From Pararhodobacter sp. SW119 (lineage in GTDB: Bacteria; Pseudomonadota; Alphaproteobacteria; Rhodobacterales; Rhodobacteraceae), in the NCBI RefSeq assembly GCF_017811755.1, contig NZ_JADDJF010000018.1, forward strand, positions 1 to 64,000: a stretch of 64,000 nt of DNA. Direction: 5' to 3'. Of this stretch, positions 6,575 through 58,508 are shown piece by piece. Within the stretch, counting starts at the first letter, position 1. Every line of letters starts with the position of its first letter. Under the pieces are notes generated by a model. That model searched no databases. It was given only the letters and a program-made list of their open reading frames with translations, and was not told the DNA's origin. The position numbers were made by a program, and so were the translations under genes.

Positions 6575-7264
6575 TTACTTGCCGGTGCAGAGGAAGACGA
6601 CGCGGATGGTTCCCAGGATCACCCTCAGGTCGGTGATCAGCGACATCTTGCGGTCATAGGCCGCGTCGAACTTCGCGCGGCTGGCGAACGAACTCCGGTT
6701 GCGCTGGGAGATCTGCCAGAAACCGGTGACGCCGGGCCGCAGGCGGTAATAGGCGGTGCCCGGGTAGAGAACCTGCTGGCAGGGCATCATCGGGCGCGGG
6801 CCGACAAGGCTCATGTCGCCGCGGATCACGTTCCACAACTGCGGCAGTTCGTCGAAGGAGGAGCGGCGCAGAAAACCGCCCAGCCGGGTGATGCGGGGGT
6901 CGTCGTCAAGCTTCTGCGACGTTTCCCATTCCGCGCGCGCTTCGGGGTTGGTGGCCAGATAGCCATCCAGCAGCGCGTCGGCATCCGTCACCATGCTGCG
7001 CAGCTTCCACATCCAGAAGGTGCGTCCGTCCTTTCCCACGCGGCGCTGGCGGTAGAAGGGCTGGCCACCGTCGCGCCATACCAGGATCGCCAGAAAGGCG
7101 ACCAGCGGTACGAACACAGGCGACGCGAGCACGACCAGCAGGATGTCGACGATGCGCTTGATGCTGTTGCGGTAGAAACCGCGGGTGGCGGCGAAATCGG
7201 AAGAAGACGGAGATCTGGACAGTACCTCGGCATGCGGCTCGAAATGATTCAAATGAACCGTCAT
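6575..7264 (-). CDS. Initiating sugar transferase (ExoY/WbaP-type, undecaprenyl-phosphate hexose-1-P transferase)
   Basis: The 229-residue protein has one membrane segment near residues 40-62 (IVDILLVVLASPVFVPLVAF). The catalytic domain of the bacterial sugar transferase family follows: PFYRQRRVGKDGRTFWMWKLRSM, then LDDDPRITRLGGFLRRSSFDELPQLWNV..GDMSLVGPRP, and near the end LRPGVTGFWQIS. These enzymes load the first sugar phosphate onto undecaprenyl phosphate at the inner membrane and so start a polysaccharide repeat unit. It is transcribed away from the ATPase gene at 7715. The sugar donor cannot be told from the sequence. Confidence 0.92.
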   Translation of the reverse strand: MTVHLNHFEPHAEVLSRSPSSSDFAATRGFYRNSIKRIVDILLVVLASPVFVPLVAFLAILVWRDGGQPFYRQRRVGKDGRTFWMWKLRSMVTDADALLDGYLATNPEARAEWETSQKLDDDPRITRLGGFLRRSSFDELPQLWNVIRGDMSLVGPRPMMPCQQVLYPGTAYYRLRPGVTGFWQISQRNRSSFASRAKFDAAYDRKMSLITDLRVILGTIRVVFLCTGK

Positions 7265-7714
7265 TCTTTGTCCTCACCCAAACTGGCCCGAATCGTGGAC
7301 CCACCACCACACAAGGGCCGAATGACACACACATCGCCGTCGGCCCGATCAATCACACGACTTTACAAGAATCTGTCAGGAATTTGCAGAGAATTATTCC
7401 GATTCTGGCGGAAAAAAGCCAATGGCTGGTTAATGATAGGCCTTGACAGTGGGTTGCCGGGATGCGCTTCGGGGATCTGCGTCCCGCGCTTGCAACCAGA
7501 GCGGGCGACACTCCGAAGGCCCTACAACCCGGGCTTCCATCGGCGGAGGAAAATTCCGTCGGGGGCGGTTTCAGGGCGGGGTGATTCGAAGGTCACGAGC
7601 GATGGGCAGGCGAATCGTGAAGCCGGCGTGGAAAGATCAACGCCGATAGACTAAAAGACCTGATCCTCCGGCCGAGCCGGAAAAGCCGTGCGCGCGGCAC
7701 GAGGGACAACGCAG
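7265..7714. other. 450-bp divergent intergenic region
   Basis: No gene is supported here. It must hold the promoters for the sugar transferase (minus) and the ATPase/ligase operon (plus). It includes a TTGACA at about 7443 without a convincing -10, and an AT-richer patch near 7370-7440. No clear sigma-54 or repressor site was found. Confidence 0.4.
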
Positions 7715-8575
7715 ATGCAGATGACTGGTTCGCTCGATCTCTACAACGATTTCTTTGGCCTGACCGAACGCCCCTTCTCGCTGGTGCCGGACCCCGACTT
7801 CCTGTTCTGGTCGGACAACCACCGCCGCGCCTACACGATGCTTGAATACGGCCTGATGACCGGCGCGCCGATCACGCTGATCACCGGCGAGGTGGGCGCG
7901 GGCAAGACGACGCTGGTGCATCACCTGCTCAAGCAGCTGCCAATCGAGATGACGGTGGGGCTGGTGTCGAATGCGCAGGGCGACCGGGGCAAGCTGGTGC
8001 GCTGGGTCTTGATGGCGCTGGGGCAGGAGGCCCCGACGAACGAGCCCTATGTCGACCTCTTCAACCGGCTGCAGACCTTCCTGATCGACGAATACGCCGC
8101 CGGGCGGCGCGTGATCCTGATCTTCGACGAGGCGCAGAACCTTTCCCGCGACGCGCTGGAAGAGTTGCGGATGTTCACCAACATCAACTCCAACAAGGAC
8201 GAGCTGGTGCATCTGGTCCTTGTCGGCCAGCCCGAGCTGCGCGACATCATCCGCCGGCCCGACCTGAAGCAGTTCGCGCAGCGCGTGGCGGCGAGCTTTC
8301 ACCTCAAGGCGATGGATGCCGAGACGGTGCGCGCCTATGTCAACCACCGGATGGCGAAGGCCGGCGCCAAGACCGAGATCTTTTCCGAACGCGCCTGCAA
8401 GCTGATCCACAAGGCGACGGGCGGCGTGCCGCGGCTGGTGAACCAGCTGTGCGATTTCTGCCTCGTCTATGCCAGTTCGGACGGCCAGGCCGGGGTGAAG
8501 CTGGAAACCGTGCAGCGGGTGCTCGACGACGGGGTGTTCTTCGGCGCCCTCTCCGAGCCGCTGAAGGACGACTGA
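7715..8575 (+). CDS. PEP-CTERM/exosortase-locus AAA ATPase (ExeA/GspA-like)
   Basis: The 286-residue protein starts YNDFFGLTERPFSLVPDPDFLFWS, the hallmark of the ExeA-like ATPases found in exosortase/exopolysaccharide loci. Walker A is GEVGAGKTT, Walker B is VILIFDEAQNL, and the sensor region reads LVGQPELRD. It ends in a winged-helix-like lid with TGGVPRLVNQLCD. The ATG at 7715 follows GAGGGA by eight bases and is chosen over an in-frame GTG at 7688. The family is thought to energise export or assembly of the polymer. It lies 77 bp before the asparagine-synthase-like gene; both leaders share a very similar GCACGAGGGAC ribosome-site segment. Confidence 0.88.
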   Translation: MQMTGSLDLYNDFFGLTERPFSLVPDPDFLFWSDNHRRAYTMLEYGLMTGAPITLITGEVGAGKTTLVHHLLKQLPIEMTVGLVSNAQGDRGKLVRWVLMALGQEAPTNEPYVDLFNRLQTFLIDEYAAGRRVILIFDEAQNLSRDALEELRMFTNINSNKDELVHLVLVGQPELRDIIRRPDLKQFAQRVAASFHLKAMDAETVRAYVNHRMAKAGAKTEIFSERACKLIHKATGGVPRLVNQLCDFCLVYASSDGQAGVKLETVQRVLDDGVFFGALSEPLKDD

Positions 8576-8652: not shown

Positions 8653-10119
8653 ATGCCCGATTTTGCCAGCCTCGACTTCTCCGACCTGCCCAAGCAATGG
8701 ATCGTCGCGCCGAGCCCCCTGCCCGATCCTGTGGCGGGCAAACGCGACCGTTTCGCCGGATACGATCTGGCCATGGCCGACGCGGTGCCTGTCCAGATCC
8801 TGCGCGACGCGCGCGGCGCCGAGGTTGGGCGCCTGATCGGCTGGCCGATCCACGGCGAGACGCTGCATCGCGCCGACGGCACTCTCCGCCTGGCCGAAGG
8901 CGAAGGCCCCGAGGATTTGTTCGACACCCTCGGCGGGCGGTTCGTCCTGCTCTGGCAGGCCGAGGACGGCCGTGTTTTGCTGCGCGAGGATTCGGCGGGC
9001 AGCCTGCCGGCGATCTTCGCCCCCGCTGCGGGGATTGTCGCGGCGACGGTCACGCTGATGGACCAATTGCACCCGCTGCCGGTTGCGACAGAGGTCGAGG
9101 CGATCTTCGATTTTCCCACCCGCCGGGGCTTCCTGCCCTTCGGCCTGACCCCGCGGCAGGGGGCGCACCGGCTGATGCCGAACCATGCGCTGGACCTTTC
9201 CACGATGAGCACGCGGCGAGTCTGGCCCGATGCCGCCTTCGCCGCCCGCCCCCCCCTGACTGACACCCGGATCGCCGCGGGCGTGGCCGAGACCGCCGCC
9301 ATCCTGCGCCGTCACATGACCGCGATCCTGAAGCAGGGCGAGACGGTGCTCTACCTCAGCGGCGGGCAGGATTCTCGCACGGTCCTGGCCGCGGCGCGCG
9401 GGATGACCGAAAACCTGCGCGCCGAGACACTGGGCGACGCGGGGCTGCTCGATGCCCATGTCGCGGCCCAGGTCGCCCGCGCCGCCGGCATCCCGCATGC
9501 CCGCGTCTCCGTCCTGCCGGTCTCGGGGACCGAGATCGAGACCTGGCTCACCCGCTCGGGCCGGATGATGTTCGACCCGGTGACGCTGCTGTCGGCGACG
9601 GCGGTGAAGATCCACACCGGCAACCACCCGATCTCGGGCACCGGGGCCGAGATCATGCGCGCCTCGAACTGGGGCGCGGACGACCTGGAGGCGCCGGAGA
9701 TCGACGTCGACCGGCTCCTGGCGCGGGTGCGCATGCCCGACTTGCCGGTGACCCGCCGCGCCGCCCAGGCCTGGATCGACAGCCTGCCGCCGATGGATGC
9801 GGCACTGGCCATCGACCTTGCCAAGATCGAGCAGATCCACGGCTGCTGGTCCGGCGCCGAAGCTTATGGCCACCCGCTGCCATTCCCCACGCTCAACCCT
9901 TTCTCCGGCCAGCAGTTGAACGAGATCGCGCTGGCCATGCCGGGGAAGTATCGCCTGTCGAACGCGATGTTCGGCGAACTGATGCGCAGCCTCTGGCCCG
10001 AGCTTCTGGAGGTGCCGATCAACCGCGCCACGGGCCTTTCCCGCCTGCGCTTCTGGCGCGCCGAGATCACCCGGATGATCCCCGCGGGATTGCGTCGGAA
10101 GCTCAAGCCCTTGCGCTAA
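8653..10119 (+). CDS. Asparagine-synthase-like ATP-pyrophosphatase (no glutaminase cysteine)
   Basis: The 488-residue protein has an N-terminal Ntn-like region (GGRFVLLWQAEDGRVLLREDSAG) and a C-terminal PP-loop domain with YLSGGQDSRTVLAA at residues 234-247. This is the architecture of asparagine synthase and beta-lactam-synthetase-like enzymes, which activate a carboxyl group as its adenylate. The start reads MPDFASL, so the catalytic Cys2 of a true glutamine amidotransferase is absent and ammonia from glutamine is not expected. The likely role is amide formation with another amine during polysaccharide modification. The start at 8653 has GAGGGA upstream. Family members recur in exosortase/EPS loci. 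Confidence 0.8.
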   Translation: MPDFASLDFSDLPKQWIVAPSPLPDPVAGKRDRFAGYDLAMADAVPVQILRDARGAEVGRLIGWPIHGETLHRADGTLRLAEGEGPEDLFDTLGGRFVLLWQAEDGRVLLREDSAGSLPAIFAPAAGIVAATVTLMDQLHPLPVATEVEAIFDFPTRRGFLPFGLTPRQGAHRLMPNHALDLSTMSTRRVWPDAAFAARPPLTDTRIAAGVAETAAILRRHMTAILKQGETVLYLSGGQDSRTVLAAARGMTENLRAETLGDAGLLDAHVAAQVARAAGIPHARVSVLPVSGTEIETWLTRSGRMMFDPVTLLSATAVKIHTGNHPISGTGAEIMRASNWGADDLEAPEIDVDRLLARVRMPDLPVTRRAAQAWIDSLPPMDAALAIDLAKIEQIHGCWSGAEAYGHPLPFPTLNPFSGQQLNEIALAMPGKYRLSNAMFGELMRSLWPELLEVPINRATGLSRLRFWRAEITRMIPAGLRRKLKPLR

Positions 10120-10232
10120 CGAGGGCTCGCCCTGAGGTTGCGTAAGTAACTGAAAATACAGCTTTGTTTTCCATTCTGTACACGTCACCTTCAGCCGGCC
10201 GGATTTCGGCGCGATGGTTTTTGGGGTGAAGA

Positions 10233-10976
10233 ATGTTCTGGAAAAAGCTCTTTCTCGTTTTGATCGTCTGTCTGGGAATTTCAGGACCTTTGGGGAGCCA
10301 GGCCCGCGCCGACAGCTGTTGGTCCTTTGAAGGAAATTTCTGGGAGGCATCGTCATCTGTCATGAGGGGGGTGCTGCATGACTGCATGCGGGAGTGGTAC
10401 GTCCCGGGCATCGACATAAGGCCTTTTCAGTGGATGGGCTGGGGCAATGGTTCGTCAGGATCGGTTTCGATGCTTGAATGGCTCGGCGGCGAAGAGGACC
10501 ATGCCGTCGCAATCTTCGATTTTCGATACGACCTTTCCCGGCACGGATTCTCGTCGTCCTTGGACGATCTTCCTCTCGGAACGTCTTTTTCATCCATCTC
10601 CTTCAGCATGAACCCACAATACATGGGCATTACCCTCGACGAATGGGCGTCGGGCGTCATGGCCAAGGGAACCGCGTCCCTGGCTTCTGCCAGACTGGAT
10701 TTCGTGCTCGCCGGGCCTGTCGTCCTGACCGAACGCCCGGATAGCAAGGCGCTCTTTCTCTCGAGTTTTGCGAACGCTTACGGTGGCTGGGGCGAGTATG
10801 GCGAAGGACAATACATCGACCATCTCGGCACATGGGCCAACCTTTCTGGATTTCACGCGGATGTCTTGAAGGTGGTTCCCATCCCCCAGCCCCCCGCCCT
10901 GCCGCTCCTGCTCGGTGGCCTCGCCGGACTCGGCTGGATGGCGCGGCGGTCGGGATCGAGAACAGCTGTCGGCTGA
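10233..10976 (+). CDS. Exported protein with variant VPLPA/PEP-CTERM sorting signal
   Basis: The 247-residue protein has a signal peptide (KKLFLVLIVCLGISGPLGSQARA). It ends in a tripartite sorting tail: VVPIPQPPALP, a hydrophobic helix LLLGGLAGLGWMA, then RRSGSR. This matches the layout of the VPLPA-CTERM type, with PQPPALP in place of the canonical proline-alanine motif. The body has no recognised domain. A sorted protein next to EPS genes is the usual arrangement, and the exosortase at 41511-43124 is the likely processing enzyme. The ribosome site is weak. Confidence 0.72.
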   Translation: MFWKKLFLVLIVCLGISGPLGSQARADSCWSFEGNFWEASSSVMRGVLHDCMREWYVPGIDIRPFQWMGWGNGSSGSVSMLEWLGGEEDHAVAIFDFRYDLSRHGFSSSLDDLPLGTSFSSISFSMNPQYMGITLDEWASGVMAKGTASLASARLDFVLAGPVVLTERPDSKALFLSSFANAYGGWGEYGEGQYIDHLGTWANLSGFHADVLKVVPIPQPPALPLLLGGLAGLGWMARRSGSRTAVG

Positions 10977-11033
10977 CCCCCGACCCTCCCCGCCTCGTCT
11001 TGCGACACGGCTCCGGGACCGTTGCAACCAGTC

Positions 11034-12119
11034 TTAGGCCTTTGTGTTCTGGGGCCGGGGAGGCTGGACAGAGAGTTGTGCGGACTTCACCCCCTGCAAC
11101 TCGCAGGCCATCCGACCCACCGGCGTATCGGCTAGGCCGCCCCAAGAGTCTTCGAATATGTCCGGATCCCAGTTGTGGTTGGCTTCCAGAAGAAGCACGC
11201 CCTCTTCGGTTATGGCTACATCCCAACCAAGGGTTTGCAAGGGCAGCATCGCATCTGCGGCACGCGCCACGGTGTCGCGAAGAAGTTGCCAATGTGGCAC
11301 GACTATCCCCTCGAAAACCACGCCCGTATCCGGGTGATGGTCATAGACCTTGGTGCTGAACTTCGGCTTCTGGCGGCCGACAGACTGAAGCTTCCCGGAC
11401 TCCACGTCGATTCCGATGGACACTCCCCCCGCCGATCCGTTGTCCACGATGCTCTTGCCGACGCCGGCCTTGAGAACCGCGGCACTGTTGACCCAATGAT
11501 CCTCAACGCGAAGCGTGTCTATGCGCACGGTGTTCGCCGAATGCGGCGAGAGTTCTTGCAGCAGTGGATGCTGACGAATGCGCGGCTGGACAATGACGTT
11601 GCGTGCAGTCAACACGAAGGTCGCGACATCATCCCCTGGGCGGATCAGCCGGACATCTCTCCCCATTCCTCCGTCGATTGGTTTTACGAAAAACTCACCC
11701 TCGCGGACCAGCATTGCCGCGTCTTCGGGTGCAAGCACCTGTCCATCGGGACTCTGGATCGCACCCGCTGCATCGATCGTGAATACCTCCCGGATCGTCG
11801 GCAGGCCGGCGGCTTCGATCCGCTCCCGGAAAAGCCGCTTGTCTTTGACAAACTTTTCTGCCTCTTTCGGATTAAGTTGGTTCTGCAAGCGCCGGATGAA
11901 AGCATATGGAAGTCGGTCCTGCCAATCTGCCGGCGCCGTTTTCATATAAAGGCCGTAACGCAAGTACTGCACGGGGGGATATCGATACCGCCAGAACATC
12001 TGGGCGGCCTCCACCGCTTGTCTTGCCAAAGATTTGCGGCCCGGCGATGCCAGCATTCGTTGAAAACGCTCTGCGTGAATTCCGCGCCAGTTGCGCACAA
12101 AACCTTTGAGCTTCATCAA
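11034..12119 (-). CDS. Sugar-transfer-associated ATP-grasp ligase, paralogue 1
   Basis: The 361-residue protein has an ATP-grasp fold. Its ATP-lysine and glycine loop are FFVKPIDGGMGRDV (residues 143-156), followed by VIVQPRIRQHP, NTVRIDTLR, VDNGSAGG and, at the end, LGWDVAITEEGVLLLEANHNWD with the Mg-binding E and N (about 312 and 314). This matches the sugar-transfer-associated ATP-grasp family, predicted to join an amine to a carboxylate during modification of polysaccharides. It is the last of five paralogues in a row and is closest to paralogue 3 (about two thirds identical by eye), indicating recent duplication. It sits 53 bp after paralogue 2. No substrate can be read from the sequence. 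Confidence 0.85.
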   Translation of the reverse strand: MMKLKGFVRNWRGIHAERFQRMLASPGRKSLARQAVEAAQMFWRYRYPPVQYLRYGLYMKTAPADWQDRLPYAFIRRLQNQLNPKEAEKFVKDKRLFRERIEAAGLPTIREVFTIDAAGAIQSPDGQVLAPEDAAMLVREGEFFVKPIDGGMGRDVRLIRPGDDVATFVLTARNVIVQPRIRQHPLLQELSPHSANTVRIDTLRVEDHWVNSAAVLKAGVGKSIVDNGSAGGVSIGIDVESGKLQSVGRQKPKFSTKVYDHHPDTGVVFEGIVVPHWQLLRDTVARAADAMLPLQTLGWDVAITEEGVLLLEANHNWDPDIFEDSWGGLADTPVGRMACELQGVKSAQLSVQPPRPQNTKA

Positions 12120-12172
12120 CCATTCCCTTTTAAAGCCGCCGACCCGGTCAGCCTACACCGCGATCACGGTAT

Positions 12173-13282
12173 CTAAGAGGATATGCGTGGTTTTCGCCAG
12201 TAATTTTCCCAGCCCAGTCCGGCAAAGCACGGGCCGACCAAAGCTTCAGTGACTTCCAGGCCCGGATTGAAGTTCCACTCGAGAATGACGACCGACCCAT
12301 CCTCCTCAACCGCAAGATCCCAACCAATCAACCGAACGTAAGGGAAGGCGGCATGCAAGCGCCGGGCCAATTCGACGGCTTCGGGGAAGCTTGGCAACGG
12401 ATGCCCGTCGAAGACAATCCCCGTATCGGGGTGTATCTCGAACTTTTGCCAGTTCGCATCATATCCCGGGCTGCTCAGGCAACCGGTCGTGAAGTCAACG
12501 CCGGAAACGAAGCGCTCTCCCGATCCAACATGTGGCTGCCCTCGTCGGCCCATCCGCAGGGTGCTTCCCCGAGTAGAAACTTGCCCACTCTCATCCAGCC
12601 AGGTGAGAATGCGCAGGGTCGCAATCGGGCCGGGAGAGACCGCAGCCAAGTCTTTGTGTTGCGTAACGAAGCGCTGGAAGACGCCACTGCCGAAGTGTGT
12701 GAAACACGCGGTGTCGAATTGAGCGGAATCCAGTACACTTATTGATCGTGCCCCAAAGCTTGCATCTCCCTTGAAGATTATTTGATCATGATCATCTGAT
12801 ATCCTTTTGAAGAAATCCGATCTTGACTGTGCTTCACCACTAGCACTGATAAACATACCGTTGCTGAAGTATCCAATATCCGGAAGGGGTGCCTCCGGAA
12901 GCAACCGACGCGTGATCGTCTTCAGGCCAGATACTCTGAAAAGGTGGCCAGATGCAATTTGATCGACATGGCGTTGGCGATAGATCGCCGGAATCCATTC
13001 CCGGCGAAACTCTCCTGCTACAGCAGTGTTGAGCGCCAAGGGAAGCCAGTAGTCTTCTGACCCAAGCACTTCCCGGGCATGGGCACGAATCTGCTCGCGT
13101 GTACTGCTATCGATTTTACCGTAGATCTTCTCAAGCTTCGTCAGCTGAGATTTTTGACGCCAGCGCCGAGATTCGCGGTTCTTTAGGTCATCAAGTTTGC
13201 GTACAATCCTGGCCGGAGCATTGACCGAAAGCCGCGCAAAGTTTTTAAGAGAGGTCGATGAAAAATAACGATTAAGCATCAT
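12173..13282 (-). CDS. ATP-grasp ligase, paralogue 2 (divergent)
   Basis: The 369-residue protein keeps the ATP-grasp core: IIFKGDASFGARSI for nucleotide binding, TLRILTW, FVSGVDFTTG, and GWDLAVEEDGSVVILEWNFNPG with the metal-binding E and N. The N-terminal 120 residues are basic and unlike the other four copies (RIVRKLDDLKNRESRRWRQK). The gene is clearly AT-richer than its neighbours, and so is the 193-bp gap upstream, which holds its own promoter-like sequence. It appears to have been acquired separately from the other paralogues. Same strand and probable operon with paralogue 1. Confidence 0.8.
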   Translation of the reverse strand: MMLNRYFSSTSLKNFARLSVNAPARIVRKLDDLKNRESRRWRQKSQLTKLEKIYGKIDSSTREQIRAHAREVLGSEDYWLPLALNTAVAGEFRREWIPAIYRQRHVDQIASGHLFRVSGLKTITRRLLPEAPLPDIGYFSNGMFISASGEAQSRSDFFKRISDDHDQIIFKGDASFGARSISVLDSAQFDTACFTHFGSGVFQRFVTQHKDLAAVSPGPIATLRILTWLDESGQVSTRGSTLRMGRRGQPHVGSGERFVSGVDFTTGCLSSPGYDANWQKFEIHPDTGIVFDGHPLPSFPEAVELARRLHAAFPYVRLIGWDLAVEEDGSVVILEWNFNPGLEVTEALVGPCFAGLGWENYWRKPRISS

Positions 13283-13314
13283 CTGCCTTTCGAGAATTAT
13301 CTACGAATCTGTTC

Positions 13315-13342
13315 ATTGTTCCGCACAATAGAGGCTTGTCAA
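13315..13342 (-). promoter_or_regulatory. Sigma-70-type promoter for ATP-grasp paralogues 2 and 1
   Basis: On the minus strand TTGACA (13342-13337) is followed after 16 bp by AACAAT (13320-13315), about 35 bp before the start at 13282. It lies in the AT-rich 13283-13475 gap, the only large spacer inside the ATP-grasp run. Confidence 0.45.
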
Positions 13343-13475
13343 AGACCGCTTGTCTTCCGCGAGGCTTTCAGCCTCCTTGGGGTTCCAATTGCGCAAAGTG
13401 CTCCTGATCACCATGAAATTTTAGCCTCTGAATGGATCAGATACGACGCACTCGTGCTCATCCGGATGACAGACC

Positions 13476-14534
13476 TCAGTTGCCGGCTTCTTTTCTAGGC
13501 TTCAGTCCATGCAATTCGCAGGCCATCCGCCCGACCGGGGTATCAGCCAGTCCGCCCCAGCCAATCTCGAAGATGTCGGGATCCCAGTTGTGGTTGGCTT
13601 CGAGGAGCAGCACGCCGTCTTCGGTGATGGCCACATCCCAGCCGAGAGTCTGAAGCGGCAGCATCACCTCGGCGGCGCGTGTGACCGTTTCACGCAGCAA
13701 GGCCCAGTGCGGCACGACGAAATCCTCGAACACCACGCCCGTATCGGGGTGACGTTCATAGACCGCGGTACTAAACTTTGTCTTCTGGCGCCCGATTGCC
13801 TGAAGCGTTCCCGACTCCAGATCGATGCCGACAAACACACCGCCGGCCGAGCCGTTGTCCACGATACTGTCGCCGACGCCGGCCTTCAGCACCGCGGCAC
13901 TGTTGATCCAGGCCTTGCCAACGCGCAGTGTGTCAATCCGTACCGTATTCACCGAATGCGGCGAAAGCCGATGCAGAAGCGGGTGTTGGCGGATGCGGGG
14001 CTGGACGATAACCTTGCGTGCATCGGCCACGAAGGCTTCCACATCATCCCCCGGGCGGACCAGTCGAGCCTCCTTCCCCTGGATGCCGTCGATGGGCTTC
14101 GAGAAGAACTCGCCCTCGCGGATCAGCGCAGCGGCATCTCCGGGTGCAAGCTCCTGGCCGTCCGGATCGCGGGTCATCCCTGCCGCATCGACCGTGAAGA
14201 CCTCGCGGATCGTTGGTAGGCCGGCGGCTTCCATACGCTCTCGAAAAAGTCGTTTGTCCTCGGCAAACTTTATGGCCTCTGCCGGATTGAGTGACTTCTG
14301 CAGACGAAAGATAAGCGGGTGCGGAAGGCGTTCTTTCCAGTCCGACGGAGCAGTTTTCAGATATAGACCATAACGCAAATATTGTGTGGGAGGATTCCGA
14401 TACAGCCAGAACATCCTGGCTATTTCCACTGTCTGGCGTACGAATGACTTCCGATCGGGAGACGCCAGCATCCTAACAAATTCCGTGTGATAAAGTTCGC
14501 GCCAATTACGAATACGTGATTTCAACCTCATCAT
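13476..14534 (-). CDS. ATP-grasp ligase, paralogue 3
   Basis: The 352-residue protein starts MMRLKSRIRNWREL, colinear with paralogue 1 (MMKLKGFVRNWRGI), so the ATG pair at 14534/14531 is chosen over upstream in-frame starts. Its first base overlaps the stop of paralogue 4 (TAATG), which implies coupled translation. Motifs are EFFSKPIDGIQGKEARLV, VIVQPRIRQHP, NTVRIDTLR, VDNGSAGG and LGWDVAITEDGVLLLEANHNWD, complete for an ATP-grasp ligase. It is very similar to paralogue 1 at protein and nucleotide level. Confidence 0.85.
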   Translation of the reverse strand: MMRLKSRIRNWRELYHTEFVRMLASPDRKSFVRQTVEIARMFWLYRNPPTQYLRYGLYLKTAPSDWKERLPHPLIFRLQKSLNPAEAIKFAEDKRLFRERMEAAGLPTIREVFTVDAAGMTRDPDGQELAPGDAAALIREGEFFSKPIDGIQGKEARLVRPGDDVEAFVADARKVIVQPRIRQHPLLHRLSPHSVNTVRIDTLRVGKAWINSAAVLKAGVGDSIVDNGSAGGVFVGIDLESGTLQAIGRQKTKFSTAVYERHPDTGVVFEDFVVPHWALLRETVTRAAEVMLPLQTLGWDVAITEDGVLLLEANHNWDPDIFEIGWGGLADTPVGRMACELHGLKPRKEAGN

Positions 14535-15574
14535 TAATTCCCATGGTTGATACGCGCCAATTGCCCAACCGGCGTGTTGCCAAGCCCCCCCCAACCTGCC
14601 TGAAAGAGATTTGCGCACCATTTGTCGTTCGCTTCGAGCAGGATCACGCCGGTCTCGGTGATCACGACATCCCAGCCTAGGCTTTCGAGTGGCAGCGCGG
14701 CCTCGGCCGCCCGCCTGATGGTTTCGCGCAACAGATCCCAGTGTGGAAGAACAAGTCCTTCGAAAGCGGAGCCCGTAGTGGGGTGATGGGTGTAGAGGCG
14801 ATCGCCAAACTTCATTCGCTGACGGCCAAAGGGACGCAGCGTTCCAGTCTCGATATTAACGCCGACGATCAGTCCCCCGGCCGAGCCGTTGTCCACAATG
14901 CTGCCGTCGACCCCCAGCTTCAACACGGCGGCGTTGCTGATCCAGCGAGCCCCATCGCGCATCGTGTCGATGCGCACGGTGTTGACCGCATGCGGATAGA
15001 GGCGGTCGAGCAGTGGATGCTGACGGATGCGGGGCTGGACGATGGTGTTGCGCGCCTCGGCCAGGAAGGCGGGAACATCGTCACCGGGGCGGATAACGCG
15101 GGCGCCGCGGCCATAGGTACCGTCGGTTGGCTTGGCGAAGAACTCTCCCTCCTGCAGCAACACGGCGGCGGCCCCGGCATCCAGAACCGCGCCGGCGGAA
15201 TCACGGATCACGCCCACATGGTCCAGCGTCAGCACTTCGCGCACGACGGGCAGGCCCGCTTCCTCCATCCGCTGCCGGAAGAGTTGCTTGTTTTTGGCGA
15301 GGATGCGCGCCTCGACCGGGTTCAGGCGTTCCTGCAGGTAGCGGATTAGGCGCGGCGGCATATAGGCGTCGATCGGCTCGGGTGCCGATTTCAGATAGAG
15401 GCCGGCCTTGAGATACTGATAGGGCGGATACCGGTAGCGCCGAAAGAGCTGCGACGCCTCCCGCAATTGCTGGATGAGCGGCTTACGGTCACGGGCTGCA
15501 AGGTAGGGCCGAAGCTCTTCGGCATGGATCTCTTTCAGCTTGTTCAGGAGCGAGCCAAGACGCACCAATATCAC
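14534..15574 (-). CDS. ATP-grasp ligase, paralogue 4
   Basis: The 346-residue protein has the same layout: FFAKPTDGTYGRGARVI, TIVQPRIRQHP, NTVRIDTMR, VDNGSAGG, LGWDVVITETGVILLEANDKWC. The change from NHNWD to NDKWC after the metal-binding E-x-N suggests a different pocket from paralogues 1 and 3. It lies 79 bp after paralogue 5 and overlaps the start of paralogue 3 by one base. It has no membrane segment, so it should act in the cytoplasm on a soluble or membrane-associated precursor. Confidence 0.85.
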   Translation of the reverse strand: MILVRLGSLLNKLKEIHAEELRPYLAARDRKPLIQQLREASQLFRRYRYPPYQYLKAGLYLKSAPEPIDAYMPPRLIRYLQERLNPVEARILAKNKQLFRQRMEEAGLPVVREVLTLDHVGVIRDSAGAVLDAGAAAVLLQEGEFFAKPTDGTYGRGARVIRPGDDVPAFLAEARNTIVQPRIRQHPLLDRLYPHAVNTVRIDTMRDGARWISNAAVLKLGVDGSIVDNGSAGGLIVGVNIETGTLRPFGRQRMKFGDRLYTHHPTTGSAFEGLVLPHWDLLRETIRRAAEAALPLESLGWDVVITETGVILLEANDKWCANLFQAGWGGLGNTPVGQLARINHGN

Positions 15575-15653
15575 TCCTGAAAGACGACCCGGGTGCGGCG
15601 GGGCACCATCGGATCTGAAGTTGCGCGAAGAAACGGCATTTCGTCTGTCATCC

Positions 15654-16736
15654 TCAGGTTTTCAGCGGTTCCGACGCGATCGGTACGGATGCGCCAATGT
15701 GGCGCAGCCCGTGCTTCTGCGCGGCGTAGCGGCCGATTGTCGTGTCACGCAGGCCACCGCAGCTTTTTTGCATGACATTGATGTTCCAGAAATCGTTCGC
15801 CTCGACCAGAAGCGGGCCGTCCTCGGCGATGGCCACGTCCCAGCAGAGCGTGCGCAGGTCCGGCAGGGACAGGGCCGCGCGGATGACCAGATCCTTGACT
15901 GCGTCCCAGTGCGGCAGTTGATAGCCCTCGAACGCCACTCCAGTATCAGGGTGGCTTTCATAGGCGGTGTGATCGCCAAAGCGGGACTTCCGGTAGGCCA
16001 GCGGAAAGAGCTTTCCGGTCTGAAGATCGATGCCGACGGCCAGTCCCCCTGCCCCCCAGTTGTCGAAGACCATGGTGCCGGATCCCATCCGCAGCGCGCT
16101 GGCACTGTGCCGAACGTTGCCTCCGTCAAGGAAACTGTCCAACCGGATCGTGTTCAGCGCACGCGGAAAAAGCGCCGAAAGCGCCGGATGCTGGCGCACG
16201 CGGGGCTGGATCAGCGTGTCCACCATCCCGGCCAGGGCCTCGGGGGTCAGATCCTCGGCGCGCACCACTCGGACATCACGACCGAAACTGCCGCGTACGG
16301 GCTTGGCGAAAAGATCGCCGGTAAGGGCCGTCGCCGTCTCGCGGAAGACCTCATGGGGCACAACCTCGTCACGGGCGTTGCGCAGAACACCCCCCTCGGT
16401 CACCAGGCACGAGGGCGTGATGCAGCGGACGCCATGGGCATTCATGTGCGCCTCGAAGCGGCGCTTGTCGCGCACGATGCCGAGTTGTGGACCGCGGTTT
16501 TCAGCCTCCTGCACGTTTCGGATCAGCATCGACGGGATAAAGGCCAGGATGTCGCCCGAGAAGTCCTTCGCGTAGAGTTCGTACTTGACGTACTGGTAAG
16601 GTGCGTAGCGCCAGTAGCGCCAGAGTCGGTACATCTCGGCCAGTTGCACGTACAGCGGCTTCTTGCCCCGGTAGCGAAGATAGGGGCCGACCTCGCTGCT
16701 CAGGAAACTGCGAACGGCCGAGGTCAGGGTACCCAT
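15654..16736 (-). CDS. ATP-grasp ligase, paralogue 5
   Basis: The 360-residue protein carries LFAKPVRGSFGRDVRVV, LIQPRVRQHP, NTIRLDSF, FDNWGAGG, and LCWDVAIAEDGPLLVEANDFWN. It is more distant from paralogues 1, 3 and 4 but has the same order of motifs and an N-terminal WRYWRYAPYQYVKYELY resembling their RYRYPPxQYLRYGLY. Its ATG lies inside the last 13 bases of the glycosyltransferase gene, so the two are coupled. Confidence 0.85.
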   Translation of the reverse strand: MGTLTSAVRSFLSSEVGPYLRYRGKKPLYVQLAEMYRLWRYWRYAPYQYVKYELYAKDFSGDILAFIPSMLIRNVQEAENRGPQLGIVRDKRRFEAHMNAHGVRCITPSCLVTEGGVLRNARDEVVPHEVFRETATALTGDLFAKPVRGSFGRDVRVVRAEDLTPEALAGMVDTLIQPRVRQHPALSALFPRALNTIRLDSFLDGGNVRHSASALRMGSGTMVFDNWGAGGLAVGIDLQTGKLFPLAYRKSRFGDHTAYESHPDTGVAFEGYQLPHWDAVKDLVIRAALSLPDLRTLCWDVAIAEDGPLLVEANDFWNINVMQKSCGGLRDTTIGRYAAQKHGLRHIGASVPIASEPLKT

Positions 16737-17734
16737 GGGATCCGTCCGTTTCCTGTCTGCGCGAAGACCTCAAATCCATCCGCCCGCAGCGATTTCCGGT
16801 AAAGGAATTTCGCGCGCCGTTCTTTCATGGTGCGCAGGATGGTGTCCAGCCTGCGATATTCGGACGACCCGTAGGCATAGGCCCCCGTGGCCAGGGCGTA
16901 CTGAGTTCGCCGATAGAGATCGGGGGTGAACTTGTAGTGCTTTATCGGCAGCAGAATGTCGGAAGCGACAGGCAGGTCGGACCAGTGCGAATTGAGGAAA
17001 ATGTCCCCTTCCTGCCATTTCACCACCGGCAGCTTGAAGGTCCAGTTCGCCGATGCATAGGCATTTCCGCGCCGCAACCGACGCAGGAGGCGCCACAAGA
17101 TCGTCTCGCGTTTGAGGTAGTGAGATCTCAGCCGAGCGCGCACGCCGTGGTGCAGCATCGTCGGCTGTTCCGTGCCGTTCAGCTTCAGATGTGGCTCACC
17201 ATCGAAATACCAGTCCCCGTCGGGATCGAACTCCGTGTTGCTTCGTAATGCCGAGACATCTTCGGGATACAGGTCCAGCATCACGCCAGCCACGCCGCGT
17301 ACGCCCATCTTTTCGGCGTGGCGGAACAGGTCGGGGAAGTCCATTTTTTCAGGCAGGACTATGAATTCGTCAGCATCCAGGACCAGCGCCCAGTTTCCCA
17401 GGGTGAAGCGGCGCAGCAGAAGGGTTCTCCAAGCATGCACCATGCGAACCCTGCGCCGGTCCGGATCCGGATCGTCGGGAAAGATAGGCTCTCCGAAATG
17501 GCGGTCACTTGCTACCAGCAGCACATCGTCCTGAGCGGCCAGAAACTCTCGGCTACCATCGTCGGAACGGTCATCAAGCAGGACGAAACGTTCGATCCCC
17601 AGTCGCCGGTAATAATCCAGGAAATGGGGCAGGAAATAGAGTTCGTTCTTCACGACTGCGGTAACGCTTGGACCGGCTCGATCCGCCAGATGCGCGTTTG
17701 CGACCACTCGCAGATCATCACAATGCTCATACAT
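16724..17734 (-). CDS. Family 2-type glycosyltransferase
   Basis: The ATG at 17734 gives 336 residues starting MYEHCDDL; longer in-frame starts run into the preceding gene. Motifs are SVTAVVKNELYFLPHFLDYYRRLGIERFVLLDDRSDDGS and, further on, WALVLDADEFIVLP (the DxD-like DADEF). These mark the glycosyl transferase family 2 type common in polysaccharide loci (sugar added at the cytoplasmic face). It follows the PrsT-like gene by 22 bp and overlaps ATP-grasp 5, tying sugar transfer and ligase steps in one operon. Confidence 0.88.
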   Translation of the reverse strand: MYEHCDDLRVVANAHLADRAGPSVTAVVKNELYFLPHFLDYYRRLGIERFVLLDDRSDDGSREFLAAQDDVLLVASDRHFGEPIFPDDPDPDRRRVRMVHAWRTLLLRRFTLGNWALVLDADEFIVLPEKMDFPDLFRHAEKMGVRGVAGVMLDLYPEDVSALRSNTEFDPDGDWYFDGEPHLKLNGTEQPTMLHHGVRARLRSHYLKRETILWRLLRRLRRGNAYASANWTFKLPVVKWQEGDIFLNSHWSDLPVASDILLPIKHYKFTPDLYRRTQYALATGAYAYGSSEYRRLDTILRTMKERRAKFLYRKSLRADGFEVFAQTGNGRIPWVP

Positions 17735-17756: not shown

Positions 17757-20198
17757 TCAGTCTGCCTCCGCAGGCAGGCTGTCGAGCGTCTCGCGCGCGG
17801 TAAGGAACTGCGGCAACGGGCTGTTGCCGGCCAGTTCCAGGGCATGTTCCAGCGCGACGCGGGCGTCTGCGGGGCGTTCCAGCGCCGCGTAGGTCATGCC
17901 GAGGTGATATTGCACCAGGGCGCTTTCGGGCAGTCCGGCGGCGGCCGGTTCGAGATGTTCGAGCGCTTCGGCATAGCGGCCGCGGCGATAGGCAATCCAG
18001 CCGTAGGTGTCCTGGAAGGCCGGCATGTCGAGCCCGCGCAGGCGCTGTGCCACCGCATGGGCGCGTTCGAGGCTTTCATCATCGTCGCGATGGATCGACA
18101 GGAGGCTCGCAAGGTTGTTGGCGATCAGCGTGTTGTTGCGATTGGCCTCGTAGAGGCGTTCGTAGATGGCGATCGCCCCCTCGAAATCGCCGGCGCGCTC
18201 CATCTCGCCGGCGCGCAGCCAGTTCAGGAAGACCGACTCCGGCATGCGGTCGAGCGCGGCCTGCAGGGTCGCGCTGGCGGCCTCGGCATCGCCGGACTGC
18301 ACATCGAGTTGGTAGAGCGCGCGCACCGGCGCCTCGTCGGTCGGGTACTCGGCGATCAGCGCGACATAGGTCGCACGGGCATCGTCCAGCCGTCCCTGCG
18401 CCGTCTGCAGCCCCGCCATCAGGAAGCGCAGCGACGGATTGGACGGATCCTCGGCCAGCCGCGCCGTCAGATATTCCTCGGCCTCGGCCATGCGGCCGGC
18501 CTGCAGGTGGCCCTGTACGACCAGCGCGGCGGCGCGGACATCGGCCTCGCCGCTCTGGATCAGTCCCTCCAGGAAGGCGATGCTTTCCTCGGTGCGGCCC
18601 TGGGCGACCAGGAAACGGTTGCGCAATTCGTTCGCGGCGGCGCGGGCCTCGGTCGTGCCCAGCTGCTGCAACGCGGCGATCATCGATTCCGCGCGTTCCC
18701 ATTCCTGCAGCGCCAGATGGACCTGGCCCAGAACCAGCATCAGGTCGGCGTTCTGCGGATTGAGGCGCAGCGATTCCTGCAAGGCGGCGCGGGCGGTGGT
18801 CAGACGCTCTTCCGACACCAGGTAGCGCGCGTAGCGCAGCGCTTGCTCCGGCGCCTGTCCAGAAGCCTCCATCGCCAGCGCCAGCCGGTCGCCCATCAGT
18901 TGCCGATCGCCCATCCGCTCATGGGCTTGGGCCAGCAGGGTCAGCGCGCCCACATCGCGCGGCGCCCGGTCGAGCGCCCGGCGCAGAAGCGCGATGGCTT
19001 CCTCGGGGCGGTCGGCCCCGATCTGCCAGCCCGCCTGCATCTTCAGCGCCTCGACATGGCTGCCGTCCTCGGCAAGGATCGTCTCGATCTGCGCGCGGGC
19101 GCCGACGCTGTTGCCCTGCGCCTGGTAGACCCGCGCCAGAACCAGGCGGATATCGCGCAGCCGATCCGAAGCGGTGCCACCCTCGACCAGTGCCTCAAGC
19201 TCGGCCACGCCCTCGTTGACGCGCCCTTCCTCGATGTTCAGAACCGCCCGCGTGGCGCGGAAGGTCTCGGGATGGTTGCCCTCCGCGATCAGCCGGTCCA
19301 GTTCGGCAAAGGCCGCGTCGCTGCCTTGGGTCTGGCGCAGGAACCGTACTACCGCCACCGCCTGATCGGGGGTCTCGGCGCCCTCGGCAAGCTGGCGCAG
19401 GAAGGCTTCGGCGCCTTCCAGGTTCTCGGTCGAGATGTACCACTGGATAAGCCCGCTGCGCAGCGCCTCGTTCTCGGGGAAGCGGCGATACATCTCTTCG
19501 AACTGCTCGGTCGCGGCAGGCACGTCGCCCCGCGCGATCAGAAGGCGCAGCTTGACCTCCTGGTATTCCAGGTTGTCCGGGTCCTCGGCCAGCGCCGCCT
19601 CCAGTTCGGGCATGGCCGCCTGCGGGTCCTCGCCGGCGAGAAGCTCGTTGATTACCACCCGGCGGGCGATGATCCGGGCGCTATCCGAGACCGTCTCGTC
19701 GCCCAGCGTGGCTTGTGCCAGCTGCACCGCCTCCGTCCGCCGGGTGCCGTCCTCGGCGACAAGCGCCTCGCGGTATTCGAGCGTGGTAAGCATCGCTTGG
19801 ACCAGAGAGTCCTCGGGCGCCAGGGCCTGCGCCTGAGTGATGTGGCGCTCGGCCTCTTCCCAATCGCCCGAAGCCAGCGCCATCTCGCCAAGCGCAAGGC
19901 GGCCGTCCAGATCCTCGGGGTATTGTTCGACGAGGCGCAGGTAGTGCCCGTAGGCGTCGCGCAGATTGCCGCGCTCGCGCATCAGGCGCGCATAGGCGGC
20001 GCGGGCCTCTCGGTGCTGACCGTCAAGGTTGAAGACGTTGCGGAACTCCACCAACGCGCGGTCGATGTCGCCATCTTCGACCAGCGCCATGCCGGACTGG
20101 TAATGCGCTTCGGCCCGTTCCGCCGCGCTGTCGCATTGACCGAGGATGAGAGGCAGCGCGACAAGACCGGCAATGAGGGCGGGAGAACGCAATATCAT
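17757..20198 (-). CDS. prsT: PEP-CTERM-system TPR-repeat protein (PrsT-like)
   Basis: The 813-residue protein has an N-terminal hydrophobic signal ending LPLILGQCD, then TPR repeats from about residue 28 to the end (motifs such as A.Y..G....GD...A...F). Length and layout fit the large TPR lipoproteins of exosortase/EPS loci. Cys22 would be the lipidated residue, but Gln at -1 is unusual for a lipobox, so it might instead be a periplasmic protein with an uncleaved anchor. The ATG at 20198 is preferred to a TTG six bases earlier. It is first in the minus-strand operon that continues through the glycosyltransferase and the ATP-grasp genes. Confidence 0.82.
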   Translation of the reverse strand: MILRSPALIAGLVALPLILGQCDSAAERAEAHYQSGMALVEDGDIDRALVEFRNVFNLDGQHREARAAYARLMRERGNLRDAYGHYLRLVEQYPEDLDGRLALGEMALASGDWEEAERHITQAQALAPEDSLVQAMLTTLEYREALVAEDGTRRTEAVQLAQATLGDETVSDSARIIARRVVINELLAGEDPQAAMPELEAALAEDPDNLEYQEVKLRLLIARGDVPAATEQFEEMYRRFPENEALRSGLIQWYISTENLEGAEAFLRQLAEGAETPDQAVAVVRFLRQTQGSDAAFAELDRLIAEGNHPETFRATRAVLNIEEGRVNEGVAELEALVEGGTASDRLRDIRLVLARVYQAQGNSVGARAQIETILAEDGSHVEALKMQAGWQIGADRPEEAIALLRRALDRAPRDVGALTLLAQAHERMGDRQLMGDRLALAMEASGQAPEQALRYARYLVSEERLTTARAALQESLRLNPQNADLMLVLGQVHLALQEWERAESMIAALQQLGTTEARAAANELRNRFLVAQGRTEESIAFLEGLIQSGEADVRAAALVVQGHLQAGRMAEAEEYLTARLAEDPSNPSLRFLMAGLQTAQGRLDDARATYVALIAEYPTDEAPVRALYQLDVQSGDAEAASATLQAALDRMPESVFLNWLRAGEMERAGDFEGAIAIYERLYEANRNNTLIANNLASLLSIHRDDDESLERAHAVAQRLRGLDMPAFQDTYGWIAYRRGRYAEALEHLEPAAAGLPESALVQYHLGMTYAALERPADARVALEHALELAGNSPLPQFLTARETLDSLPAEAD

Positions 20199-20568
20199 GG
20201 TCAATCCACTCAGAAATCCGGGGGCGGAGCACCGTAGCGATGCGCTAACCCGGCAAGGTTACGATGCCATGAAGTCTATGCCAGCTTGCGCCCCGATGCG
20301 AGGGGGGAAGCGGCTCACGTCTGCGCGCTTAGCGCTTACCCGGAGGGCCTGACCGTCGCCAACGGAGCCGGTATCCGCTTTTCCCGGTTCAACTCATGCT
20401 GAATAAGTGGGAAAATACGCTTTCGGTAATGGCATGGTGACCATCCTGACGCTAAAGGGGGCATGAGTTTGAGAAATTGCGCCAGGGGCGACGCCCTGTG
20501 GACGGGACCCTGTCCATACCGGCAAACAGTGTCATGATGCGACCGGCCGGGTCGAATGGAGAACCTGC
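20199..20568. other. 370-bp divergent promoter region between prsT and the chain-length gene
   Basis: No gene is supported. It must carry the promoters of both halves of the left EPS cluster. GGAGAA just before 20569 is the ribosome site of the Wzz-like gene. No clear -35/-10 pair or operator could be assigned. Confidence 0.4.
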
Positions 20569-22113
20569 ATGAGCTTCGACATCAAGTATTACCTGTCGAT
20601 CTTCTGGCGGCGGTTTCCTTATTTCCTGATCGTCGCCACGCTGATCGGCGCGATCGGCGTCTCTGTCGCTTCGGTCCTGCCACCCAGCTACCGGGCCGAG
20701 GCACTGCTCCTGGTCGAAAGCCCGCAGATCCCGACCAACCTTGCGGTCTCGACCGTGCAGACCGATGCCGCGACCGAAGTAGCGATCATCGAGCAGCGGC
20801 TGATGACGCGCGCCAACCTGATCGACACAGCCAACCGGCTGGGCCTTTACAGTGATGCACCCGGGGTGTCGCCCGACCAGGTGGTCGCCGACATGCGCCG
20901 GCGCATCCAGATCCGCTCGGCGGGTCTGGGAAGGCGCTCGACGGCGGCGCCGACCGTGCGCGTGAGCTTCCAGAGCCGCGATCCGCAGATGTCGGCCCGG
21001 GTCGTCAACGAATTCGTCGGCATGATCGAGCGCGAGAATGTCGACATGCGCCGCGGCGTGGCCAGCGAAACGCTGCGCTTCTTCCGCGAGGAGGCGAACC
21101 GGCTGAGCGAGGAAATCAGCATCCGTCGCGCGCGGGTGCTGGATTTCCGGGTAGAGAACCGCGAGACCCTGCCCGAGAGCCTCGATTTCCGGCGCTCCCA
21201 GCAGGGTCGACTGGAAGATCAGTTGCGCCAGCTGTCGCGCGAGGACACCCAGCTTGAGCAGCGCCGCACCGAACTTGTCGCACTGTTCCAGAGCACCGGC
21301 CGGCTGAGCACCGAACCGAGCGCGCCCGAGCGCGAGCTGGCTCAGGCCCGCGAACAGCTTGCCAGCGCGCTGCGCCTCTATTCGGCGCAGAACCCACGGG
21401 TGCGCGTGATCCAGGCCCGCGTTTCCGAACTGGAAAACATGGTAGAGGAACAGACGGGCACGCGCGGCGAGGCCGCTTCGGCCGAGTTCGAGCAACTGCT
21501 CGCCTCAATCGACGATTCTCGCGCCGCGCTGGACGAGGAGCGCGCCCGCATCGAGGCCGAAATCCTGGCGCTGCAGGAAACGATCGACGCCACCGCCACG
21601 ACCGGGCTCCGCCTGGCCGAACTGGAGCGCGAGCTTTCGGCGATCGAGGCGCAGCATCGCAACGCCGTCGACCGGCTGACCCAGGCGCAGATGGGCGAGC
21701 GGATCGAACTCATGTCCCGTGGCCAGCGGATCACGGTGCTGGAACAGGCCTCGGTGCCCAATGCGCCCACCAGTCCCAACCGCCCGGTGATCGCCGCCGC
21801 CGGCGTCGGCGGGGGCATGGCGGCCGGACTGGCGCTGGTGGCGCTGCTGGAGTTGCTCAATCGCTCGATCCGCCGCCCCGGCGAGATCACCCGGCGGATG
21901 GGCATCACGCCCCTGGCCACCCTGCCCTACGTGCGCTCGCGCAAGCAGCAGATGGCACGCCGGGCTATCATCGGGGTGGCGCTGTTTGTCACGCTGGTCG
22001 GGGTGCCGGTCGCACTCTGGGCGGTTCATAATTTCTACCTGCCGCTCGATCTGCTGATCGACCGGCTTTTTGATCGGCTGGGCATCAATCGCATGTTGCA
22101 GAACTTCATGTGA
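20569..22113 (+). CDS. Wzz-type polysaccharide chain-length determinant (exosortase-locus subfamily)
   Basis: The 514-residue protein has an N-terminal membrane helix (YFLIVATLIGAIGVSVASVLPPSYRAEALLLVE), the Wzz start. A long periplasmic coiled-coil section (about residues 150-390, rich in RxxELxxL) follows, then a proline-rich VPNAPTSPNRP, a second helix (VIAAAGVGGGMAAGLALVALLEL) and a third, unusual helix near the C-terminus. This is the subunit that sets chain length and partners the tyrosine kinase encoded 60 bp downstream. GGAGAA supports the start. Confidence 0.9.
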   Translation: MSFDIKYYLSIFWRRFPYFLIVATLIGAIGVSVASVLPPSYRAEALLLVESPQIPTNLAVSTVQTDAATEVAIIEQRLMTRANLIDTANRLGLYSDAPGVSPDQVVADMRRRIQIRSAGLGRRSTAAPTVRVSFQSRDPQMSARVVNEFVGMIERENVDMRRGVASETLRFFREEANRLSEEISIRRARVLDFRVENRETLPESLDFRRSQQGRLEDQLRQLSREDTQLEQRRTELVALFQSTGRLSTEPSAPERELAQAREQLASALRLYSAQNPRVRVIQARVSELENMVEEQTGTRGEAASAEFEQLLASIDDSRAALDEERARIEAEILALQETIDATATTGLRLAELERELSAIEAQHRNAVDRLTQAQMGERIELMSRGQRITVLEQASVPNAPTSPNRPVIAAAGVGGGMAAGLALVALLELLNRSIRRPGEITRRMGITPLATLPYVRSRKQQMARRAIIGVALFVTLVGVPVALWAVHNFYLPLDLLIDRLFDRLGINRMLQNFM

Positions 22114-38348: not shown

Positions 38349-38482
38349 GCCTGCCCTCGTGCCCAAGCCTTGCCGCCCCGTTCCGGGATCTGATCGTGGC
38401 TCTCTGGTCTGCTCGCGGGGCGACTTCGGACCGTGAAATCCGGCCACCCTCTATCGTGGTTTCAGTGACACCGAGCCTAAAG

Positions 38483-38586
38483 TTATCCACAGCCTGCGTC
38501 CAGCCTGGAATGACCGAAGGATCGGGGGTTCGGAATCGTTTCTTCGGGGGATCCGATTCACCCTATCGGGGGTTCGGATTCACTGC
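38483..38586. other. oriV: Replication origin: DnaA box plus three 22-bp iterons
   Basis: TTATCCACA at 38483-38491 is a perfect DnaA box. Three head-to-tail iterons of 22 bp lie at 38521-38542, 38543-38564 and 38565-38586, with core TCGGGGGTTCGGA-TC (copy 2 has ATCCG in the middle). The following 240 bp up to parA is AT-richer with short repeats, as for a melting region. RepA is the likely iteron binder. Confidence 0.85.
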
Positions 38587-38904
38587 CCTTCCGACCAGTA
38601 GGTTCAACCGCTTGGGAAACAAGCCATATCCAAAGAACCCAGAAGGCTGTAACTAATGAAATAACTGGAAACTAACTGGGAAGAAATCTGCGACACGCCT
38701 GACGCACCATCGGTCATACCCTCCCACAGCCTGAAATTGCTGAGAAAAAGCAGTGATGTGCGGAAAATGCTTCCGGGTGCTGCGAATCGTGATATGCTGT
38801 GAAAAACACGATACATGACCGGATCGAACGGTCGGGACATCGAGCAACCGGCAAAAAGGGCGGCACCAGAACCGGGCCGCCTAAACACCGGACAGGAGGC
38901 GGGC

Positions 38905-40281: not shown

Positions 40282-40324
40282 GGAGGTCAGGCATGGACGA
40301 AATGGGCGGGAACGGGACGGGCAT

Positions 40325-40340
40325 GTTTCGCGCGCGAAAC
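40325..40340. other. parS: parS-like palindrome 2
   Basis: GTTTCGCGCGCGAAAC, in the 149-bp parA-parB gap. Confidence 0.75.
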
Positions 40341-40396
40341 GGCACGACTGCTTTTAAGGTGGTTTGCCAATGGGACGCGGGTCCCCGGCGCGCGGT

Positions 40397-40412
40397 GTTT
40401 CGCGCGCGAAAC
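40397..40412. other. parS: parS-like palindrome 3
   Basis: GTTTCGCGCGCGAAAC, 72 bp after copy 2 and 18 bp ahead of the parB start. Two copies between parA and parB are the strongest sign that this is the ParB target. Confidence 0.75.
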
Positions 40413-40430
40413 GCAGGCAGGGTCTGAGCC

Positions 40431-57845: not shown

Positions 57846-57853
57846 GGCGCCGC

Positions 57854-58409: not shown

Positions 58410-58420
58410 GCCCGTGTCTG

Positions 58421-58439: not shown

Positions 58440-58508
58440 GGAACATCCTTGCCTGGATCAAGTCACGCCCCGTTCGTGATGCGGTGCGAGCTCCTGTTTC
58501 TGCGCCGT

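Follow-up and report, generated by a model that had tools for sequence, protein, structure and literature searches.

A five-gene run of ATPgrasp_ST ligases at an exopolysaccharide locus of Pararhodobacter sp. SW119

Introduction

Why should a bacterium carry five ATP-grasp ligase genes in a row beside its exopolysaccharide (EPS) genes, and do five genes mean five successive reactions? The question is raised by a contig of Pararhodobacter sp. SW119 (NZ_JADDJF010000018.1), of which we analysed positions 1 to 64,000 (the window). The five genes, here AG1 to AG5, belong to the sugar-transfer-associated ATP-grasp family, ATPgrasp_ST (PF14397). In the literature searched we found no characterised member of PF14397 and no paper using the terms 'sugar-transfer associated ATP-grasp' or 'ATPgrasp_ST'; the prediction behind the family is said to originate in Iyer 2009. 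A sequence-only reading of the window had proposed that the five enzymes form an ordered set of ligations, one per residue, which decorates an exopolysaccharide or lipid-linked sugar with peptide or amino acids. Here we describe the genes, their history and their setting, and weigh that proposal against other explanations.

Results

The run comprises the following genes:
11034..12119, minus strand: AG1, ATPgrasp_ST ligase (PF14397, E 2e-45)
12173..13282, minus strand: AG2, ATPgrasp_ST ligase, divergent and from another lineage (PF14397, E 1.1e-27)
13476..14534, minus strand: AG3, ATPgrasp_ST ligase (PF14397, E 7.6e-44)
14534..15574, minus strand: AG4, ATPgrasp_ST ligase (PF14397, E 1.1e-43)
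15654..16736, minus strand: AG5, ATPgrasp_ST ligase (PF14397, E 4.6e-39)
16724..17734, minus strand: GT2-type glycosyltransferase (PF13704, E 5.7e-20), overlapping AG5

All five reading frames are open, and in a profile search all five proteins lie far above the PF14397 cut-off (97.5-155.6 bits against 31.4), so that the earlier description of five intact genes on one strand holds, with the qualification that AG2 is no close paralogue of the others. For AG1, the ATG at 12116 is a likelier start codon than the TTG at 12119. The coupling to a glycosyltransferase is likewise borne out: the start of AG5 and the upstream glycosyltransferase gene, a separate gene and not a fusion, overlap by 13 nucleotides (nt), and AG3 begins within the stop of AG4 (common TGATG); at least part of the run is thus coupled. 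When the array was scanned for promoters and terminators, matches did not exceed chance. Strong PF14397 matches in the SW119 genome are confined to the array, two others being weak or partial.

When aligned with over 140 relatives, all five proteins have K94, K146, R199, D300, E312 and N314 (AG1 numbering), and in a 58-row alignment five of these positions are invariant and K94 nearly so; the loss of metal or ATP residues that would have spoken against the sequence-only reading is therefore not seen. A DN..G motif, found in 94-98% of the family, is present in AG1, AG3, AG4 and AG5, while AG2 reads P, H, E. The AlphaFold2 (AF2) model of AG1 is confident (predicted local distance difference test, pLDDT, 91.6; predicted TM-score, pTM, 0.89), and its closest solved folds are ArgX (Z 16.3 over 206 residues, 2.9 A), RimK (15.7) and LysX (14.9), ligases that join an amine to a carboxylate. 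Across this group Z is 14.5-16.3 over 200-212 residues at 2.9-3.8 A, with D-Ala-D-Ala ligases next at Z 13-14, rows within about 1 Z of each other being read as tied. The model thus suggests that AG1 sits with the RimK/LysX/ArgX structural group, a likeness of fold that conveys neither membership nor substrate: those enzymes act on proteins (RpsF, LysW) and are 16-20% identical to AG1 over about 200 residues, and against the RimK-related ligase family TIGR02291 the AG proteins score 22-35 bits, below its cut-off of 314. From their residues, AG1 to AG5 are apparently active amide-bond-forming enzymes.

The copies do not share one history. AG3 and AG1 are the closest pair (74% identical); identity to AG1 falls to 55% in AG4, 36% in AG5 and 24% in AG2, for which values of 21-24% were obtained. 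Two trees, one of 152 proteins and one of about 160, place AG1, AG3, AG4 and AG5 in a clade exclusive to them (support 1.0 and 0.96), and AG2 pairs with a Fodinibius protein; four copies therefore go back to local tandem amplification and the fifth comes from elsewhere. AG2 also has the lowest G+C of the window (0.52; window mean 0.66). Between AG1 and AG3 the nonsynonymous divergence (dN) is 0.19 and the synonymous divergence (dS) 1.19, a dN/dS of about 0.16, so both have been maintained under purifying selection; they have in common the motifs QPRIRQHPLL, NTVRIDTLR, DNGSAGG, GWDVAIT and LLEANHNWDPDIF. We take the amplification, on these relationships, to be lineage-specific and AG2 to belong to another lineage. 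The array is real and rare, its enzymes are intact and its evolutionary story is clear.

How rare it is was judged from 396 genomes of the host's family at a threshold of E <= 1e-15. PF14397 occurs in 54 of them; the other 53 carry one or two copies, and no genome but that of SW119 has more than two. By score and catalytic residues all five proteins are ordinary members of PF14397, whereas the rest of the sampled family has one or two copies per genome and here there are five in a row. None of 17 congeners has a match at 1e-10, no other genome among 391 of the order passes 1e-30 with a profile of the four related copies, and a conserved five-gene set is absent from every other genome examined. 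Runs of the gene as such are found more widely: among 80 loci from the GTDB collection, at least two head-to-tail copies occur in 16 and at least three in six (the count for one locus, L091, includes an overlapping frame). Roseovarius albus carries a row of ATPgrasp_ST genes, five of them intact and three fragmentary (L054, 6189-14683), and the intact ones form a separate clade of their own (support 0.998). Such independent arrays imply that runs of this gene arise repeatedly by duplication. On its flanks the R. albus array has a solute-binding protein and an alpha/beta hydrolase, and its surroundings are not an obvious EPS locus. Three long ATP-grasp reading frames elsewhere carried no second, non-ATP-grasp Pfam domain. 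Some arrays have PGA_cap, alanine dehydrogenase, octopine dehydrogenase or LicD genes as neighbours, a setting consistent with chemistry of amino acids or amines on surface polymers. In two loci (L040, 6591-14476; L101, 9614-16397) several ATPgrasp_ST genes lie beside or interleaved with PGA_cap genes of the capsule poly-glutamate type, with alanine dehydrogenase in the former array and octopine dehydrogenase in the latter.

In a tree extended with plasmid hits and phylum-wide hits, the nearest relatives of AG1, AG3, AG4 and AG5 are single-copy sister genes on Shinella and Rhizobium plasmids and in an alphaproteobacterium, G894 (clade support 0.997). All three lie in polysaccharide loci, beside a flippase, a polysaccharide deacetylase and a hydrolase, and two of the three have a sugar dehydrogenase nearby. 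The Shinella and Rhizobium sisters come after genes for an acyl carrier protein (ACP), an AMP ligase resembling ligase_PEP_1 and a pyridoxal-phosphate (PLP) decarboxylase resembling dCO2ase_PEP1; with the ligase_PEP_1 profile the Shinella protein scores 567 bits against a cut-off of 592, and with dCO2ase_PEP1 413 against 478. This recalls the exosortase-A PEP1 set (ligase_PEP_1, dCO2ase_PEP1, hydr1/2_PEP and ACP), for which we know of no proven chemistry and of which the G894 locus has the hydrolase only. The run of ACP, ligase, decarboxylase and ATPgrasp_ST genes occupies 8889-13107 of L127 and 8323-12507 of L128, both rhizobial plasmid loci, and no exosortase is among the annotated genes of these stretches. 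Single or paired ATPgrasp_ST genes in the host's family often adjoin a LysA-like PLP decarboxylase (L012, L014-L016, L027, L028, L031, L033, L034 and others; the one scanned scored 476 bits with TIGR01048). A ligase and decarboxylase set of exosortase-A (XrtA) type elsewhere in the SW119 genome was also considered and ruled out, none being above cut-off.

The array stands among these further genes of the window:
6575..7264, minus strand: initiating sugar-1-phosphate transferase of WbaP/WcaJ type (TIGR03022, E 2.4e-75, below the curated cut-off)
7688..8575, plus strand: EPS-core ATPase, bounding the insert on the left (TIGR03015, 275 bits against a cut-off of 324.5; 83% identical in a congener)
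8653..10119, plus strand: asparagine-synthase homologue without Cys2 (PF00733, 22.1 bits against a cut-off of 21)
10233..10976, plus strand: putative PEP/VPLPA-CTERM protein (TIGR03370, 22.0 bits against a cut-off of 25.35)
17757..20204, minus strand: PrsT-like tetratricopeptide (TPR) protein belonging to the exosortase/EPS core (TIGR02917, 197.8 bits against a cut-off of 312.2)
20569..22113, plus strand: Wzz-type chain-length protein, bounding the insert on the right (PF02706; TIGR03007, 155.6 bits)
22173..23123, plus strand: exosortase-associated tyrosine autokinase (TIGR03018, E 4e-22)
41511..43124, minus strand: XrtD exosortase, VPLPA-CTERM specific, itself placed at 41517-42995 (TIGR04152, 662.6 bits against a cut-off of 400)

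In five other loci (the congeneric contigs L184 and L185, L187 of G018, L157 of G111, and L153 on a Pseudorhodobacter turbinis plasmid) the ATPase and Wzz matches adjoin within about 200 nt, and the order is PrsT and sugar transferase divergent from ATPase and Wzz, with the tyrosine kinase next where the contig is long enough. In the window the same interval measures 11,993 nt and holds the asparagine-synthase homologue, the putative sorted protein, AG1 to AG5, the glycosyltransferase and PrsT, which is displaced from its usual neighbour, the sugar transferase. This 12-kb block is an insert into, or a rearrangement of, the EPS core. The array does follow a PrsT-like gene, as had been read, which lies upstream on the same strand, though its score is under the curated cut-off; the sorted-protein gene can be kept only as a putative VPLPA-CTERM match just below its threshold. 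The whole locus looks plasmid-borne, since XrtD has beside it (37338-41432) a replication initiator of plasmid type (RPA) and partition genes of RepA/RepB type. Signs of insertions in the locus are an IS1634-family transposase (43479-45125), also next to XrtD, and an Eco57I/N6-type methylase (30720-32510). More EPS genes (a GT4 glycosyltransferase, a PrsT-like TPR protein, a VPLPA-CTERM protein and a GT2 glycosyltransferase) lie at 56637-62781, and the locus therefore seems split across the window; this GT4 protein is 60% identical to the product of a gene near the sister ATP-grasp of G894.

The exosortase assigned to this locus is well founded, XrtD lying 25 kb from the array on the same plasmid-type contig, with a VPLPA-CTERM target protein (60392-61582) at 37.7 bits, above the cut-off of 25.35. 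The genome has a second XrtD with its own PrsT at another site (G000 C138:160242-164292, L136). A comparison with other carriers of XrtD gave no general tie to ATPgrasp_ST genes: XrtD is in 93 and PF14397 in 54 of the 396 genomes, both are in 11 against 12.7 expected (Fisher P 0.61, a test limited by draft assemblies), and in none of the 10 other genomes with both do they share a contig. A general association is thus unsupported and was rejected, and that in SW119 is local.

A ligase of PP-loop type without the glutaminase Cys2 had also been noted near the array, and this too is confirmed. The 8653-10119 protein begins MPDF, has the PP-loop SGGxDS motif (YLSGGQDS) and reads GTGAE at the later GxGxDE-type motif; in remote members of its group SGGxDS is lost. 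Its gene and 10233-10976 face the array from the other side. The protein was modelled with relatives from the window and whole-genome loci only, one plasmid-collection row being left out (pLDDT 87.3). Over nearly its whole length the model has the two-domain fold of carbapenam synthetase (Z 23.7, 391 residues aligned, 4.2 A) and beta-lactam synthetase (22.5), with AsnB (21.4) behind them by a small margin. Like the carbapenam and beta-lactam synthetases it lacks Cys2; it differs from them in its GTGAE motif, its EPS context and an identity of 15-18%. A homologue occurs in 16 of the 396 genomes, including EPS loci with no ATP-grasp genes in the stretch read, and it is therefore a separate accessory gene with no fixed partnership with the array.

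Discussion

The reading that we prefer, with a probability of about 0.45, is that the AG ligases form amides between carboxylates on EPS intermediates and amines or amino acids, and that duplication has diversified their donors or acceptors. AG1 to AG5 would be cytoplasmic ATP-dependent carboxylate-amine ligases working on intermediates of the polysaccharide made by this apparently plasmid-borne locus. Each would phosphorylate a carboxylate with ATP and Mg, most simply that of a uronic acid in the growing glycan (a UDP-glucose-dehydrogenase-type gene is present in the genome), and an amine or amino acid would then attack the activated carboxylate to give an amide. A single ancestral EPS-modifying ligase would have given rise by local duplication to tandem copies, first AG5, next AG4 and then AG1 and AG3, with AG2 joining from another lineage; the diverged copies with intact catalytic residues probably cover different amines or acceptor sugars, not successive residues of one peptide. 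Through adenylation, the 8653-10119 enzyme may contribute one more amide or close one into a ring. Gene content, catalytic residues, predicted fold, duplication history and the insertion into the EPS core are the ground from which we infer the chemistry throughout, including acceptor, donor, location and common action on one polymer.

The closest studied precedent is Cj1438C of the Campylobacter jejuni HS:2 capsule, whose TupA-like ATP-grasp domain amidates glucuronate of the growing capsule with serinol phosphate or ethanolamine phosphate (PMC11800379). It shares with the array an ATP-grasp enzyme and a GT2 glycosyltransferase in a polysaccharide locus; it differs in being TupA-like, fused to the glycosyltransferase, single and served by known amine-supplying enzymes, whereas the AG proteins are encoded by separate genes and belong to another Pfam family. 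Of the peptide- or amino-acid-decorated EPS first proposed, then, what stands is active-looking, RimK/LysX/ArgX-like ligases within an exosortase-linked EPS locus, beside a PP-loop enzyme like beta-lactam synthetase, and a precedent for amidation of a capsular sugar; a peptide as such is a conjecture.

Several observations weigh against amidation of EPS. No amine- or amino-acid-supplying gene was found by the array, and in the SW119 genome ligase_PEP_1 and dCO2ase_PEP1 reach at best 267.1 bits (cut-off 592.35) and 190.7 bits (478.45), so that the amine or amino acid, if any, would come from general metabolism or unrecognised genes. The TupA-like family, which, like TupA itself, stands apart from PF14397 among ATP-grasp families, has zero matches among AG1 to AG5 at E <= 0.01. 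We found no solved structure related by sequence to these ATP-grasps, and their nearest relatives are only about 30-43% identical. Some PF14397 arrays, that of R. albus among them, lie outside any visible EPS locus.

Ordered assembly, in which the ligases act in sequence, each attaching an amino acid of its own, to build a peptide side chain on a glycan or lipid-linked sugar, would suit five co-directional and partly translationally coupled genes, the RimK-like fold and the arrays of Clostridia and Bacteroidales beside PGA_cap, alanine dehydrogenase and LicD genes. A comparable polymer is known, the polyglutamate-polyglucuronate teichuronopeptide of alkaliphilic Bacillus, synthesis of which is tied to tupA (PMC8153356), although in another type of cell. 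Nevertheless, four of the copies come from one local amplification, AG1 and AG3 have their catalytic motifs in common, AG2 is of an unrelated lineage, no conserved set of five exists in any other genome examined, and the independent arrays, themselves products of duplication, differ in copy number; we regard ordered assembly as unlikely, and the only thing that speaks for one ligation per enzyme is the copy count. Its stricter form is very improbable: an assembly line in which every bond has its own ligase would put a defined peptide or oligo-amide on a sugar of the EPS, and the 8653-10119 enzyme would close a ring or add a terminal amide before export.

The opposite view, that the tandem copies catalyse the same reaction, as redundancy or for dosage, their number having no chemical meaning, draws on the motifs common to AG1 and AG3 and on the broken copies within the similar R. 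albus amplification. It is hard to square with the strong divergence of AG4, AG5 and AG2, with five open frames and with purifying selection on AG1 and AG3, and we consider it improbable. The ligases might alternatively load amino acids on an ACP for decarboxylation or extension before transfer to the sugar, a route for which BtrJ, BtrI and BtrK of butirosin synthesis provide a model. The gene order beside the nearest relatives on two rhizobial plasmids fits such carrier-protein chemistry; however, no such genes lie near the array, the ligase and decarboxylase do not pass their cut-offs in the genome, and the third sister locus (L176) has no ACP, ligase or decarboxylase match, all of which leaves it a decidedly unlikely account.

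If amidation by diversified ligases is correct, an insert with five neighbouring amide ligases may give SW119 an unusually amide-decorated polysaccharide. Polysaccharide-linked ligases of PF14397 are widespread, and a genome with five copies, four descended from one ancestor, is a natural series in which to look for the residues that set donor and acceptor, while a single EPS locus offers a place to find out which reaction the family carries out. Through the nearest relatives and their link to the ligase, decarboxylase and ACP genes, the exosortase-A set would also gain a testable chemistry.

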